Both the position numbers and the translations under genes were made by a program. From NCBI GenBank assembly GCA_018267215.1, contig JAFDYX010000024.1, positions 263,337 through 327,336 on the forward strand: DNA of 64,000 bases. The letters run 5' to 3'. The notes under the pieces are model-generated. The model ran no database searches. It was given only the letters and a program-made list of their open reading frames with translations, and was not told where the DNA came from. The DNA is from Bacteroidota bacterium. GTDB taxonomy: Bacteria; Bacteroidota; Bacteroidia; Cytophagales; Cyclobacteriaceae. Of this stretch, positions 9,006-20,210 are shown in pieces (the stretch's first letter is position 1; the number at the start of each line of letters is the position of its first letter).

Positions 9006-10046
9006 TTATGGTATTGCTACCGTTTCTTTAGTTAAAAATTCTGATACTATTTTCTTAAAAATTTCAAACTCCACTAAAAATCCATCGTGGCCGAAATCAG
9101 ACGAAATAATTTTTAATGAAGCCTGATTGATATGCTCGGCTAAATACCGTTGCTCGACAACAGGAAACAAGCAATCGGTTTGGATGCCCACCACCAATGT
9201 TTTTGCTTTGATCTGTTTTAAGGCGTCTTCCACAGAAGTTTTTCCGCGGCCTACATGGTGGCTGTCCATCGCTTTAGACAGAAGCCAGTAGGTAAACGCA
9301 TTAAACCGATTGGCTAATTTTTGACCTTGGTACCGTTGATAGGAAGCAGCGCGAAAGCCATCTACTTTGTCGTTTGTTTTTTCTGATTGGGTCTTTTCAA
9401 AACCATCGTGTGCGCGGTACGAAATCATGCCGATGGCACGGGCTGCCTTCATTCCCTCCAGTCCGGCACGGGCATCATTTTCTTTCCAGGTTTGGTCTGC
9501 CTCAATGGCCATGCGCTGTGCTTCGTTAAAGGCAATGCCCCAGGGCGAGTGTTGCGCATTGGTGGCAATCAAAATCAGGTTTTCAAAAACGGAAGGTTGA
9601 GTAATGGCCCACTCCATCGCTTGTTGTCCGCCTAGTGAAGGGCCGATCAGTGTGTTTATTTTCTCCAACCCCAAATGCTGGCGGAGCAGGTCAAACGAAG
9701 CCACTACATCACGGTTGGTAAATTGAGGGAAGTCGTGAAAATAATTTTTACCTGTGTCGGGGTTTACCGACAAAGGGCCGGTAGAGCCATAGCAACCGCC
9801 CAATGTGTTGGCACAGACAATGAAATGGTGACGCGGATCAAACGGACCGCCTGTAGTAAATAAATCTTTCCACCAATCGGTAAAATCCGAACTGCCCGTC
9901 AGCGCATGGATAACCCAAATCACGTTGTCGCGTTCACGGTTCAGTTGGCCGAGTGTGGTGTACTTGAGTTGGAAGCCGGAAAGTTTTCCTCCGGCTTCCA
10001 GTTCAAATGGATGGTTGTAATGAAAAATATGATCTTGTTTTACCAC
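9006..10046 (-). CDS. metX: Homoserine O-acyltransferase, MetX type
   Basis: 346-residue alpha/beta-hydrolase that activates homoserine by O-acylation. The nucleophile elbow GPSLGGQQAMEW puts the catalytic Ser at residue 137. The Asp is in VGIQTDCLFPV near 297 and the His in SDFGHDGFLVE near 327. The family motif HALTGSSD and the substrate loop region NTLGGCYGSTGP are present. Acetyl-CoA is the usual donor in this clade, but some MetX proteins use succinyl-CoA, so donor specificity is inferred. It lies between metY (9 bp upstream) and hom (6 bp downstream), giving a compact route from aspartate semialdehyde to homocysteine. Confidence 0.94.
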   Translation of the reverse strand: MVKQDHIFHYNHPFELEAGGKLSGFQLKYTTLGQLNRERDNVIWVIHALTGSSDFTDWWKDLFTTGGPFDPRHHFIVCANTLGGCYGSTGPLSVNPDTGKNYFHDFPQFTNRDVVASFDLLRQHLGLEKINTLIGPSLGGQQAMEWAITQPSVFENLILIATNAQHSPWGIAFNEAQRMAIEADQTWKENDARAGLEGMKAARAIGMISYRAHDGFEKTQSEKTNDKVDGFRAASYQRYQGQKLANRFNAFTYWLLSKAMDSHHVGRGKTSVEDALKQIKAKTLVVGIQTDCLFPVVEQRYLAEHINQASLKIISSDFGHDGFLVEFEIFKKIVSEFLTKETVAIP

Positions 10047-10055
10047 CTTAGTTTA

Positions 10056-11390
<1,335 letters not shown>

Positions 11391-11464: not shown

Positions 11465-11551
11465 CTAAGCTTACTCATGCCCGTCACCCGGCAGACCGTG
11501 CGCTTAGTTTGTTGCTGTGTGTTTTGGCTAACAACGAAATCAACAGCAACA
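11465..11551 (-). promoter_or_regulatory. Candidate attenuator pairings downstream of the poly-Cys leader
   Basis: The leader Cys codons TGTTGCTGT (plus-strand 11543-11551) are exactly complementary to ACAGCAACA (11510-11518), with an additional GCGC / GCGC match outside. The region just downstream can instead form CTAAGC / GCTTAG (11502-11507 with 11465-11470). The outer GCGC arm (11500-11503) overlaps the second stem, so the structures partly exclude each other. This is the layout expected when a stalled ribosome decides the RNA fold. The pairing is seen in the sequence; its function is inferred. Confidence 0.5.
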
Positions 11552-11650
11552 GCGCTTGCAGCAACACATGTTGCCAATACAAATGCCGATACTTTGATTA
11601 ATGATTGGTTCGGAGTGAACCTGATGTTGGGATGTGATGAAGTTTTTCAT
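11540..11650 (-). CDS. Poly-cysteine leader peptide of the metY operon
   Basis: 36-codon ORF on the metY transcript, too short for standard gene finders. It starts with ATG-AAA-AAC, 10 nt after the 3' arm of the riboswitch P1 stem, and ends with the codons ATG TGT TGC TGC AAG CGC TGT TGC TGT TGA, giving Met-Cys3-Lys-Arg-Cys3. A further Cys lies at residue 24. Seven cysteines in 36 residues, six of them in the last eight codons, is the hallmark of an amino-acid attenuator leader. Poly-cysteine uORFs with cysteine-responsive attenuation are known in mycobacteria. Here the function is inferred from composition, position and the downstream complementary RNA. The peptide has no signal sequence or domain of its own. 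Confidence 0.72.
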   Translation of the reverse strand: MKNFITSQHQVHSEPIINQSIGICIGNMCCCKRCCC

Positions 11651-11659
11651 GTTGCTTCC

Positions 11660-11756
11660 GGTTTATATTTCAGGAGTTAGCACCTTTTCCGAACACTATC
11701 CGGGGGGTTGCTAGCGCTTCATTGAGCCTGTCTCTCCGCGCTTCTGTATAAATCGG
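11660..11756 (-). ncRNA. SAM-I (S-box) riboswitch
   Basis: Read on the minus strand, the leader matches the S-box core. P1 is TTTATA / TATAAA at the two ends. P2 is AGCGC / GCGCT enclosing GGAGAGACAGGCTC and ATGAA. Then come AGCAACC (the conserved GGCAACC element), a P3 hairpin CCGG...TCGG, and the highly conserved GGTGCTAACTCCTG. It binds S-adenosylmethionine and normally turns the downstream genes off. No separate terminator hairpin follows it; the next element is the poly-cysteine leader ORF, which starts 10 nt later. The target operon metY-metX-hom fits perfectly. Confidence 0.92.
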
Positions 11757-11787
11757 TTGAGCTGTTGCTTCACCGACTACGATGATG

Positions 11788-11819
11788 CAAACGTATAGTA
11801 GTTTAGTAGAGTTTCCAAA
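11788..11819 (-). promoter_or_regulatory. Promoter of the metY-metX-hom operon
   Basis: Bacteroidota-type promoter: TTTG at 11819-11816, a 20-base spacer and TACGTTTG at 11795-11788, an exact TAnnTTTG match. Transcription should start near 11781, about 25-30 nt before the riboswitch P1 stem. Confidence 0.75.
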
Positions 11820-16733: not shown

Positions 16734-19700
16734 ATGCGCATTTTCCTCATTGCTGGCTTGGCGTTCATTACATTTTGTGTACAGGCACAGAAGCAAGACT
16801 CGCTGCAACAAGTTGTTTTTCAATCGGCATTACAAAAGTTGAAACAAGGAAATTATGCTGAGGCGTCAGCTCAGTTGTCGCAGTTAATCGCCACCAACTT
16901 TGCCAATAAAGAAGTGTATGTAAAGCGTGGTGTGGCGGAGTTTATGTTGGGTAATGTGGAGAAAGCAAAAAATGATTTCGATGAAGCTGTAAAAGCACGC
17001 ATCAACACCAGCGAGTTGTTTGAATACCGCGGGCTGGCCAAATACAAACTGGAGGATGCGGCAGGCGCCTCCATGGATTTGGAAAAAGCAATTTCTATGG
17101 GACTGAAAAGCCCCGAACTTTTTGCCACGTTGGGCAATGCCAAATTTAAACTGAACAATTATAAAGAAGCCATTGCCAATTATGATATGGCTATCCTTTC
17201 CGGAAAAAAGGAAGCCATTCTTTTCAACAATCGCGGAAAAGCCAAGATGACTTTAAATGATTTAGAAGGTGCCGAAAAAGATTTTACCGAAGCGCTTAAC
17301 ATCAAGCCCGATTACGACAAGGCACTCGACAACCGGGCCAACACACGCTATCAATTAAAAAAATGGAAAGAAGCCACAACCGATTTTGATAAGATTATTT
17401 CTTCGGGCAGAAGCGATACAGAGTTGCTTCAAAAATTGGGCACTGCTAAATTCAACATACAAGATTTTAAAGGCTGTGCCGAGGCGCTCAATAAGGTGGT
17501 GAGCAAAGGCGTAAAAGACAAAGATGTTTTTAAGATGCTCGGCCTCAGTCTGGCCAGCCAAAATAATTGTACGGAAGCAGCCCAGGCCCTGAGTGCAGCC
17601 GTCTCTTTGGGCGTAAGCGACAAAGATACATTTGAGCAACTGGGTACATGCCAATACAAGAACAAGGAATATGCACAGGCCATCGAGTCGCTGGGGCGGG
17701 CGGTGGCCATGGGCTCGTCATCCAAAGAAATTTTTCTGATGAAGGGCAATGCCGAATATCAACAGAAAGATATTGACAATGCACTGAAAGATTTGGAAAA
17801 AGCCGTAGCGATGGGCGTTTCGGATTATGATGCTTTTAAAAATCTGGGCGACAGTAAATTTTTAAAAACAGATTACGCCAGTGCCCTGAAGTATTATGAC
17901 AAAGCAATTGCGATAACATCAACCGATGCTGTGCTGTTTAATAATCGCGGCAAAGCCAAATATACTTTGGGAGATATTGCAGGTTCGCTGCCAGATTTCG
18001 ACAAAGCCATTTCTTTAAAGCCTGATTACAGCAAGGCGCTCTCGAACCGCGGCACAGCGCGATTTGCGTTAAATGATTTTAAAGGCGCTGCCGAAGACTT
18101 GGATAAAACACGTGCTACCGAAGGAGAATCGGCCGAGCTGATGCGCATGCTCGGCATTTCAAAATACAATTTGCAAGACAAAGAAGCAGCCAAAACATTT
18201 TTGGAAAAAGCAGCGAAGACCGGATCGAAAGACTCAAAAGTAAACTTGTACTTGGGTTATCTCCGGTACGATGCCAGCGATTACAAGGGAACGATAGACG
18301 CACTTAACTTAGCTGAAGCATCTGGCGAAAAAGAAATTCTGTTGTACGAAAAACGCGGCAAGTCGCTTTTTGCCACCAAAGATTATGTAACCAGCGTAAC
18401 TGATCTTGAAAAAATTGTTCAAAACGGTAAGCCCGATGTAGCTACTTATGAAGATTTGGGCATAGCCTATCAGCAACAACAAAAAAATAAAGAAGCATTG
18501 GCCAATCTCGAGCAAGCAGTCATGGCCGGAAGCAAGAATAAGGATGTTTACTTTCAGGTGGGCAACGGCCGCTTTAAAGAAAATAATTTTACAGGAGCCA
18601 TCGAGGCGTATGATAAAGCCATTTCGCTGGGCGCGAATGACGAAGTGATTTATAACAACCGCGGAAAGGCCAAACTCAACGCCAATCAGATAAAAGAATC
18701 GTTGCCAGATTTTGATAAAGCCCTGCAGTTAAAACCAACATACATGCTGGCCATGAAAAACAGGGCGTCAGCCGATGCACAGCTAAAAGATTGGCCTAAG
18801 GTGGTAACAGACTTGGCTCCGGTTATATCCGCCAATCAGGCCGGAGCAGATGAGTTTTTGCTTTCCGGCTTAGCAAAATACAACCTGAAAAATTATCAAG
18901 GCGCTATTGATGATCTGAGCAAAGCCATCAGCTCGGGAACAAAAGACAAACAGGCTTATACAGCCCGTGGCAGTTCTTATTTTGAAATCCCTGATCTCAC
19001 CAAAGCGTCAGACGATTTTTCGAAGGCTATTGACATGGGCGAAAGCTCACCGGAGATTTACTTTAAGCGAGGCTCTTGCCGGTTTAGCGCGCAAGAATAT
19101 AAAAACGCTTTCCCGGATTTAGACAAAGCAATTAATTCAGGATACACTGAGGCATCGGCTTACGATATGCGCGGCTATTGCCAGTTAGACAACAAAAACG
19201 TAGAGGCTGCCCTCAACGATTTTAACATAGCCATTGAAAAAAATCCTAAGCTGCCTTCCGCATTTTTCCATCGGGGCGATGCGCGCTTTCGTTCTAATAA
19301 TTTTTTAGGAGCGGTGCAGGATTATTCCACAGCTATCGAACAAGGTTTAACGGATGCGGTTATATTGAATAACCGGGGCAAAGCCTATTTAAACCAAGAT
19401 CAGTTCGATCAGGCTATTCAAGATTTTTCCACAGCCATCTCCAAGAAGAATGATTATGCACGTGCTTACGAGAATCGCGCCAGCGCCTATTTGAAAACAA
19501 AGAAATTTGATTTGGCCGTAAAAGATTTACGGCAACTGGAAAAACTTACCGAAAAACCGGATGCTGATTTTTATCAGAGATTGGGCGAAGCGTATTTTGA
19601 ATTGAAGAATTATCCTGTGGCGTTCGATTACCTCGACAAGGCAATTACCGGAGGCAACAAACAAAAAGATTTGTTCTTGAAACGAGCTAAATGCTACATG

Positions 19701-20210
19701 GAGCAACAAGACTACCAGCCGGCCATACGCGATTTGGATGACGCCCTGAAAGCCGGGGAGAATACCGTGGCTTTGTTTCTCGAAAAAGCACGCGCTTATC
19801 TCGGACTCGGAAATAAAAAATCAGCATTGGAGAGTTTGTCGAAAGCCATCGCTCTCGATCCAGGCAATGCTGATGTGTATTTTAACAGCGCTGTCATTAA
19901 AGAAGAAAGCCAAGATTACGAACAAGCCCTGTTGGATTATAATAAAGCATTGCAATACAAGCCCAAAGATGCACCCGCATTGGCCGGCCGGGCTAACTGC
20001 AAAGCACAAATGGAAGACTACGGAGCGGCCGTAAATGATATGGATGATGCCATTGCACTCGACCCCAAAAATGCTTCGTACTATAAGCAGCGAGGCAATT
20101 TTAATTACCAACTCAAAAACAAAGAAGAAGCCTGCAAAGACTGGGCAAAAGCAGTAGAACTGGGCGATGCCAAAGCAAAATTTTCGATAGATCAATTCTG
20201 CAAAAAATAA
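16734..20210 (+). CDS. Exported giant TPR repeat protein
   Basis: 1158-residue protein with an N-terminal signal peptide (MRIFLIAGLAFITFCVQAQ). The rest is about 33 tetratricopeptide repeats of 34 residues with no other domain. It has a striking higher-order period: the block starting with NNRGKA recurs at residues 165, 403, 641 and 879, exactly 238 residues apart each time, which equals seven TPRs. This indicates growth by duplication of a seven-repeat block, with divergence between copies. TPR solenoids bind other proteins, so a periplasmic or surface scaffold role is plausible, but no partner can be named. It is flanked by the micro-membrane protein pair upstream and a nuclease downstream. 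The only visible Cys are scattered, and the end FSIDQFCKK is free of anchors. Confidence 0.9.
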   Translation: MRIFLIAGLAFITFCVQAQKQDSLQQVVFQSALQKLKQGNYAEASAQLSQLIATNFANKEVYVKRGVAEFMLGNVEKAKNDFDEAVKARINTSELFEYRGLAKYKLEDAAGASMDLEKAISMGLKSPELFATLGNAKFKLNNYKEAIANYDMAILSGKKEAILFNNRGKAKMTLNDLEGAEKDFTEALNIKPDYDKALDNRANTRYQLKKWKEATTDFDKIISSGRSDTELLQKLGTAKFNIQDFKGCAEALNKVVSKGVKDKDVFKMLGLSLASQNNCTEAAQALSAAVSLGVSDKDTFEQLGTCQYKNKEYAQAIESLGRAVAMGSSSKEIFLMKGNAEYQQKDIDNALKDLEKAVAMGVSDYDAFKNLGDSKFLKTDYASALKYYDKAIAITSTDAVLFNNRGKAKYTLGDIAGSLPDFDKAISLKPDYSKALSNRGTARFALNDFKGAAEDLDKTRATEGESAELMRMLGISKYNLQDKEAAKTFLEKAAKTGSKDSKVNLYLGYLRYDASDYKGTIDALNLAEASGEKEILLYEKRGKSLFATKDYVTSVTDLEKIVQNGKPDVATYEDLGIAYQQQQKNKEALANLEQAVMAGSKNKDVYFQVGNGRFKENNFTGAIEAYDKAISLGANDEVIYNNRGKAKLNANQIKESLPDFDKALQLKPTYMLAMKNRASADAQLKDWPKVVTDLAPVISANQAGADEFLLSGLAKYNLKNYQGAIDDLSKAISSGTKDKQAYTARGSSYFEIPDLTKASDDFSKAIDMGESSPEIYFKRGSCRFSAQEYKNAFPDLDKAINSGYTEASAYDMRGYCQLDNKNVEAALNDFNIAIEKNPKLPSAFFHRGDARFRSNNFLGAVQDYSTAIEQGLTDAVILNNRGKAYLNQDQFDQAIQDFSTAISKKNDYARAYENRASAYLKTKKFDLAVKDLRQLEKLTEKPDADFYQRLGEAYFELKNYPVAFDYLDKAITGGNKQKDLFLKRAKCYMEQQDYQPAIRDLDDALKAGENTVALFLEKARAYLGLGNKKSALESLSKAIALDPGNADVYFNSAVIKEESQDYEQALLDYNKALQYKPKDAPALAGRANCKAQMEDYGAAVNDMDDAIALDPKNASYYKQRGNFNYQLKNKEEACKDWAKAVELGDAKAKFSIDQFCKK

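Follow-up and report, generated by a model that had tools for sequence, protein, structure and literature searches.

A SAM-I riboswitch subclass followed by a cysteine-ending leader ORF in Bacteroidota, a possible two-input RNA device

The metY-metX-hom locus

The window, a stretch of 64,000 nucleotides from a member of the Cyclobacteriaceae, carries on its minus strand a SAM-I aptamer, a short Cys-ending ORF that starts 9 nt later, and the genes metY, metX and hom. The features of this locus are as follows.

11788..11819, minus strand: promoter-like pair, TTTG at 11819-11816 and TACGTTTG at 11795-11788, read from the sequence
11660..11754, minus strand: SAM-I (S-box) aptamer, RF00162, 67.6 bits; P1 GAUUUAUA/UAUAAACC; no helix P4
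11540..11650, minus strand: leader ORF of 36 codons, ATG at 11650-11648, TGA at 11542-11540; recurs in relatives
11543..11566, minus strand: Cys-codon cluster CCCKRCCC, presumed ribosome-parking site, read from the sequence
11510..11517, minus strand: anti-Cys strand CAGCAACA, complementary over 8 bp to the Cys codons UGUUGCUG
11465..11507, minus strand: hairpin B with a conserved GUGAC apex; covariation in relatives, covariance model R1
10056..11378, minus strand: metY, O-acetylhomoserine sulfhydrylase, operon gene 1; TIGR01326, 679 bits (cut-off 495)
9006..10046, minus strand: metX-like homoserine acyltransferase; best TIGR01392, 346 bits, below the curated cut-off of 500; PF00561
7743..8999, minus strand: hom, homoserine dehydrogenase; NF004976, 337 bits (cut-off 205); PF00742

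The aptamer was the only RNA in the window to exceed its Rfam gathering score (RF00162 SAM, 11754-11660, 67.6 against 44.4 bits, E 1.3e-13). The original prediction had placed an S-box aptamer at 11660-11756 without naming a strand; the aptamer itself is supported by this score, but the boundary at 11756 had been set 2 nt too far and is measured at 11754. Behind it, a 36-codon ATG ORF ending Met-Cys3-Lys-Arg-Cys3-stop had been claimed, followed by metY-metX-hom, and both were recovered: the ORF occupies 11650-11540, 9 nt after the aptamer, and translates as MKNFITSQHQVHSEPIINQSIGICIGNMCCCKRCCC, with the C-terminal end MCCCKRCCC and a stop at 11540, while metY and hom score above their profile cut-offs and the metX-like gene below that of TIGR01392. 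The MetX-like product is an alpha/beta hydrolase by Pfam. Helix P4 is absent from the aptamer, as its columns are gapped in the RF00162 alignment, and the Rfam score does not require it; P4 is also missing in two relatives from the genus (L055 and L059), and the P4 region is longer in other members.

The TTTG at 11819-11816 would be the -33 promoter element. From the promoter-like elements, and without mapping, transcription is inferred to start near 11783, ~133 nt upstream of the leader ATG. The genus has 34 Cys-leader matches, and in 26 of them TAnnTTTG, a promoter element that sits at -12 to -5 according to PMC9723704, occurs in the 60 nt preceding the aptamer, against 0.7 expected by shuffling.

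Two further observations concern this genome. Between hairpin B and metY lies a perfect 8-bp hairpin, AGATTGGC-TGAG-GCCAATCT (11433-11414), with A-rich sequence after it and, by eye, no terminator. The genome also holds a second SAM-I riboswitch (L001, G000:C18:94602-94706) ahead of metH, ~41 nt from the gene and without a leader ORF.

Distribution of the Cys leader

A Cys leader was scored when an ATG lay between -3 and +20 nt relative to the aptamer end and opened an ORF of 15-89 codons with at least two Cys in the last 12 residues. In the genus (30 genomes and 69 SAM-I matches, the two of the window's genome included and all of them read), a Cys-ending ORF preceded 26 of 27 metY genes and 8 of 8 unassigned genes, that is, genes without a match to six reference proteins, but none of 27 metH and none of 7 metB genes. 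The sole metY miss (L058) has a 9-codon ORF without Cys at the leader place. A lack of conserved start, frame and Cys cluster in related genomes would have refuted the original prediction; the 26 of 27 genus metY matches and the recurrence in other orders speak against this outcome.

SAM-I matches were present in 335 of 390 genomes of the order, and among the best-scoring 30 new loci, read at one per genome, the Cys leader was found at 3/6 metY, 1/1 metX, 0/14 metH, 0/6 metB and 0/3 other genes. A sample of the phylum (70 genomes, 90 matches, of which 88 were read and the other two were the window genome's own, counted with the genus) gave 3/42 metY genes with a Cys leader and 0/46 for all other genes. 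These three all fall within the window's class, and 38 of the 39 metY misses came from other classes. In this unbiased sample 4 of 17 class genomes have a Cys leader, the window's genome counted, which makes the leader widespread and scattered, neither universal nor class-wide. A general feature of metY or of SAM-I could be ruled out, given 0/55 metH and 0/31 metB genes with a Cys leader and its absence from 39/42 phylum metY matches.

Four Cys codons behind a SAM-I core were sought in 84,980 named species genomes; the scan returned at least 120 stretches, of which 80 were fetched. In 73 of these an ATG ORF runs into the Cys codons, with a stop at or soon after them; in four loci (L113, L139, L143 and L152) the first in-frame ATG lies inside the aptamer and a second ATG at the usual place. 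Of the remaining seven, five are non-Bacteroidota by title and chance-like (Paenibacillus, Sedimentibacter, Chitinilyticum, Halomicronema and a Leptolyngbyaceae bacterium), and a clear ATG is missing from L163 (Solirubrum) and L172 (Hymenobacter). All of 18 diverse loci scored out of the 80 passed the RF00162 gathering score. At least five Bacteroidota orders are represented by title, namely Cytophagales, Chitinophagales, Sphingobacteriales, Saprospiraceae and Flavobacteriales; groups were assigned from titles, and the lineages of four genera were looked up. In the genome database these orders form one class, Bacteroidia, which is the sense of class used here; NCBI splits them. Since the scan pattern demands Cys codons, the 80 loci attest to breadth and not to frequency.

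Among the 80 fetched of at least 120 stretches, the downstream gene was by similarity mostly metY, then metX, then a metY-like gene of ~37% identity. Pfam assigned ten other targets: PAPS reductase (two), RimK-like ATP-grasp (two), sulfite reductase, OsmC, a TonB receptor, a zinc carboxypeptidase, a pyridine-nucleotide oxidoreductase and an amino-acid permease, the last at L163, the Solirubrum locus without a clear leader ATG. The sulfate reduction targets agree with Cys sensing; the TonB receptor and the zinc carboxypeptidase are not obviously sulfur genes and are uninformative. SAM-I with a Cys leader stands ahead of a RimK-like ATP-grasp gene at L152 and L155 by Pfam, at L062, L078 and L083 by eye, and at L070 as judged on its first codons only; these targets suggest an undescribed sulfur-linked pathway. 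At four loci (L049, L066, L067 and L068) a leader of this type precedes the gene for a small secreted protein that is putatively YceI-like.

An aptamer subclass defined by P1 and the leader start

The window's genome and its relatives in the genus, order and phylum samples together gave 187 SAM-I matches (69 + 30 + 88). A P1 with TTTATA (UUUAUA in RNA) marks a subclass of 45 among them, and a Cys-ending ORF follows in 41/45 aptamers with this P1 and in 0/142 without it. An ATG lies 7-12 nt after the aptamer in 44/45 subclass members against 6/142 others, and an ATG ORF of 12-89 codons begins -3 to +20 from the aptamer in 44/45 against 26/142. Within the 41 Cys leaders the first in-frame ATG is offset by 7-12 nt in 34 and by only -1 to +1 nt in three. 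The Cys cluster is missing in four of the 45 (L013, L021, L058 and L272). On these counts the AUG position belongs to the subclass as such, with or without a Cys run.

The class was also searched without regard to Cys, using the exact letters of P1 and of the sequence just after it in 296 genomes, a strict pattern that under-counts. This gave 29 loci in 26 genomes, and a few of the loci also stand in other samples; all 29 were read, and 18 had a Cys-ending ORF and 11 had none. Six of these 11 keep an ATG ORF at ~+7 to +10 (L309, L311, L312, L320, L321 and L334). The leader start is thus more widely kept than the Cys run, which counts against Cys sensing as a fixed property and favours the start codon as the working end of the riboswitch. 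With the cluster absent from 11/29 and 4/45 subclass loci, Cys sensing appears dispensable in some lineages. Judged on comparative grounds, the architecture is a recurrent aptamer subclass and not a peculiarity of this locus, and its riboswitch probably acts via the start codon of the leader and not beside it.

Coding evidence for the leader ORF

In total 131 Cys leaders were collected, 97 of them non-redundant, with a median length of 38; 55 of the 97 start Met-Lys. In the non-redundant set the last nine codons contain on average 5.4 Cys in frame, against 0.87 and 0.13 in the other frames, and Cys is enriched across codons -1 to -7 from the stop, with TGT used 330 and TGC 196 times. Because the leaders were gathered by a Cys criterion, the weight rests on the frame comparison and not on the level of Cys.

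Changes were counted in 24 independent close pairs. Cys codons showed 22 synonymous and 12 non-synonymous changes, against 74 and 250 in other codons (Fisher p 1.2e-6); the original prediction, which substitutions breaking the frame at normal rates would likewise have refuted, is not refuted here. The paired leaders were mostly collected by the Cys criterion, so that Cys loss is under-counted, and no dN/dS was computed. A free peptide body with a kept codon run is the pattern expected of leader peptides, and in its coding traits the ORF matches a leader-peptide attenuator: it is short, and towards its end codons for an amino acid of the pathway are clustered and kept against a free body.

Among 70 ATG ORFs at the post-aptamer place, at least three of one residue in the last nine were seen for Cys in 37, Ser in four, Leu in three and five other residues once each. 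Indels with a length that is a multiple of three made up 14/38 inside the ORF and 14/89 after the stop in the DNA alignment. A chance ORF is excluded by the subclass association (41/45 against 0/142), the synonymous Cys changes, the residue counts and the control for ATG position.

Three Cys codons followed by TRR occur at 67 places in the window's genome; 35 of these end in a stop codon, one of them being this leader. The other 34 stop-ended places were read and yielded no second poly-Cys leader; leaders that end otherwise than in three Cys escape this pattern. These 34 contain 12 distinct short ATG ORFs, which lie on or opposite longer ORFs, in one case (L379) the ORF at 16734-20210 of the window.

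RNA downstream of the leader stop

Past the stop, an anti-Cys strand can pair over 7-10 bp with the Cys codons in 23 of 24 sequences of the window's clade (G-U allowed, no shuffles); the remaining one, L060, has a 13-pair arm behind the stop instead. The core CAAC of this strand is invariant or nearly so in 22 aligned clade sequences. In the window the complementarity is unexceptional against shuffles (z -0.63, rank 16 of 60). Over all 97 leaders the complementarity of the Cys codons to the 80 nt after the stop was weakly above shuffles, with a mean z of -0.60 against -0.12 for a far control, and these 80 nt carry more structure than their shuffled versions do (mean z -1.53; window -1.38).

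Hairpin B was assessed on 22 sequences. Here 95.9% of cells pair, against 88.8 in shuffles, and 25 cells are changed on both sides, against 9.0, a value reached by 0/500 shuffles; the covariation score was 0.449, against 0.287 for shuffles and at most 0.144 when the hairpin was slid. Less striking were double-sided changes at 6/11 pairs against 4.2 in shuffles, which 54/500 shuffles reached.

Covariance model R1 matched the window, whose sequence is among the 22 model members, at 11517-11450 with 61.7 bits and nowhere else in it. In 148 genomes of the family, searched with the stricter filters of a large search, it gave 11 matches, one per genome, in five genera. All 11 sit just after the subclass P1 and a Cys leader; ten leaders were called by script and one (L347, 55 residues, end CCCCACCCC) was read from the sequence. 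Six of the 11 are new, the leaders of the other five being identical to those of model members. Each time metY lies downstream, and in two of the 11 a gene of ~500 nt intervenes. No Rfam family for hairpin B was found, a permissive scan giving three eukaryote-type chance matches (E 0.18 to 3.9), all on the opposite strand. The hairpin occurs in only a few genera, and the downstream RNA differs outside the window's clade; post-stop hairpins with thin covariation are suggested in Mucilaginibacter (15 sequences) and in Lewinella/Haliscomenobacter (8 sequences).

The expression platform

A terminator-like site, defined as a hairpin followed by a T-run, was sought at SAM-I matches with an assigned gene. 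It was present at 4/32 Cys-leader matches, 26/31 metB genes, 27/44 metY genes without a CC-holding leader, 2/9 metX and 3/55 metH genes, and in 8 of the 97 non-redundant leaders. By the same test no intrinsic terminator of the classical attenuator type was found in the window. As metH matches mostly lack terminators too, a missing terminator is no special trait of the subclass.

Shine-Dalgarno sequences are not recognised by Bacteroidia ribosomes, as far as the available text of PMC9976891 goes, and it is therefore plausible, by inference, that SAM would act by hiding the AU-rich P1 strand before the AUG. Across the 97 leaders C exceeds G in the leader body (-60 to -30) and in the first 30 nt after the stop (C 0.23-0.27, G 0.13-0.19), a composition that may resemble Rho-loading sites and for which there was no control set. 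Perhaps Rho takes part; the suggestion rests only on the few terminators and on this uncontrolled bias. On average over the same leaders, A/U-rich and G-poor sequence begins ~70 nt past the stop; in the window the hairpin at 11433-11414 lies there.

Proposed mechanism and alternative explanations

The reading that I consider probable is a two-input mRNA leader, in which SAM would gate translation of the leader and Cys-tRNA would decide whether the ribosome parks. It is drawn from sequence comparison, with no expression, ligand or ribosome-profiling data. The SAM-I aptamer is demonstrated by its covariance score, and so are the leader ORF, its AUG ~10 nt after P1 and the Cys run just before its stop; SAM binding itself is inferred. 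Bound SAM would let P1 form and hide the AU-rich stretch just before the AUG, leaving the leader untranslated. At low SAM the leader would be translated, and the ribosome would park on the Cys codons if Cys-tRNA were short or else leave at the stop. In the window's clade the next step is partly demonstrated: the Cys codons can pair with the conserved anti-Cys strand beside hairpin B, and a parked ribosome would block this pairing. The metY operon would then be ON only with the ribosome parked, i.e. with SAM and Cys-tRNA both low. Both inputs would repress, since expression requires a ribosome that can start (low SAM) and that then stays (low Cys-tRNA). Otherwise the bare leader, mostly without an intrinsic terminator, would be silenced, with Rho or mRNA decay as possible agents. 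The regulatory sign is inferred from physiology, and sensing and the route of shut-off (Rho, decay or translation) are inferences as well.

Another arrangement would be two parallel and independent sensors, the leader responding to Cys-tRNA and SAM acting directly on the downstream RNA, bypassing the leader start codon. The three of 41 Cys-leader matches whose first in-frame ATG lies -1 to +1 nt from the aptamer end could fit this, but a terminator-like platform is absent in 28/32 Cys-leader matches, the ATG stands at +7 to +12 in 44/45 subclass members against 6/142 others, and 6/11 Cys-less loci keep their ATG ORF at +7 to +10, all of which leaves the arrangement improbable. Less easily set aside, though still unlikely, is translational attenuation, where parking would free the metY start region or aid re-initiation without Rho or control of transcription. 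There is precedent for it at mycobacterial cysteine genes in the accessible part of PMC13236596, but the A/U-rich, G-poor sequence from ~70 nt after the stop in the 97 leaders gives no sign that the start is generally sequestered.

The extreme Cys content of the C-terminus, and targets such as OsmC and the TonB receptor that could suit a metal or redox role, might instead point to a functional Cys-rich microprotein that binds metal or thiols under SAM control, with no attenuator. Its body, however, changes freely (74 synonymous and 250 non-synonymous changes, no dN/dS), length and Cys pattern vary, and no second ORF ending in three Cys turned up among the 34 further places in the window's genome; I give this explanation very little credence. 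Least credible of all is an RNA-only element whose UGY repeats are kept for base pairing, with the ORF as a by-product: the anti-Cys strand does complement the repeats in the window's clade, but the run is in frame with the ATG (5.4 Cys against 0.87 and 0.13 in the other frames), Cys codons change synonymously, and the complementarity is weak over all clades.

The two-input leader may extend to a wider claim, which I put forward tentatively and at slightly less than an even chance. Bacteroidota would possess a widespread RNA logic device in which a SAM-I subclass has lost its terminator and uses the start codon of a poly-Cys leader as its expression platform. A parked ribosome, possible only at low SAM together with low Cys-tRNA, would be the sole ON condition of a sulfur regulon that includes metY, metX, PAPS reductase and sulfite reductase, and in one clade a new hairpin would read the parking. 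If recurrent, such a device would provide a regulatory code, open to testing, by which many environmental Bacteroidota control sulfur assimilation and the synthesis of methionine, and would exemplify one RNA sensor gating another via translation. Its marker (the P1 sequence, an AUG ~10 nt later and a Cys-ending ORF) would allow the regulon to be read from genomes, and lineages that lack the Cys codons and keep the start codon would be a natural experiment on the way such devices are put together.

Comparison with known systems

Mycobacterial poly-Cys attenuators were reportedly the subject of work by Canestrari in 2020, with a leaderless start going by its title. The mycobacterial poly-Cys uORF is reportedly leaderless; the window ORF instead lies behind an aptamer, with transcription inferred to start ~133 nt upstream of its ATG. 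These attenuators are cited in PMC13236596 and PMC9094748, both available in part. Poly-Cys leader peptides of Actinobacteria, likewise known from a partial text (PMC1262725), share with the present leader a Cys run near the stop, sulfur genes downstream and the lack of a conserved terminator hairpin; they belong to another phylum and have other targets, and no riboswitch is reported in front of them in that part of the source.

The uORFC-8-2 motif ahead of cysS in Rhodobacterales (PMC8632094) is similar in having a uORF with tandem Cys codons and presumed ribosome-mediated attenuation. It differs in its two Cys codons, usually at positions 14-15, and in its U-run terminator, whereas the window leader precedes metY without a terminator-like site; a riboswitch goes unmentioned in the accessible sections of that source. 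The B12 riboswitch and uORF ahead of ppe2 in M. tuberculosis (PMC11260477) are alike in that the riboswitch governs translation of the uORF and the uORF governs the gene. There, the ligand is another one, a stop-start overlap with re-initiation is used, and the available excerpt makes no mention of an amino-acid-specific codon run.

SAM-I aptamers ahead of metB in relatives are of the same family and have another P1 sequence, a terminator-like hairpin in 26/31 cases and no Cys leader. The mgtCBR leader of Salmonella is not known to have a SAM-I aptamer or a Cys run. It is alike in being one leader in which two short ORFs serve as tandem attenuators (PMC3641672, in the part available). Leader peptides in general are known within the phylum from Flavobacterium psychrophilum (PMC9723704) and B. 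thetaiotaomicron (PMC7366714), again on partial texts. No description of a SAM riboswitch combined with a poly-Cys leader was found in open-access full texts, subscription papers and supplements being outside the scope. As far as the open-access literature goes, poly-Cys leaders and riboswitch-governed uORFs were already known, each in other systems, and what may be new is the poly-Cys leader behind a SAM riboswitch.
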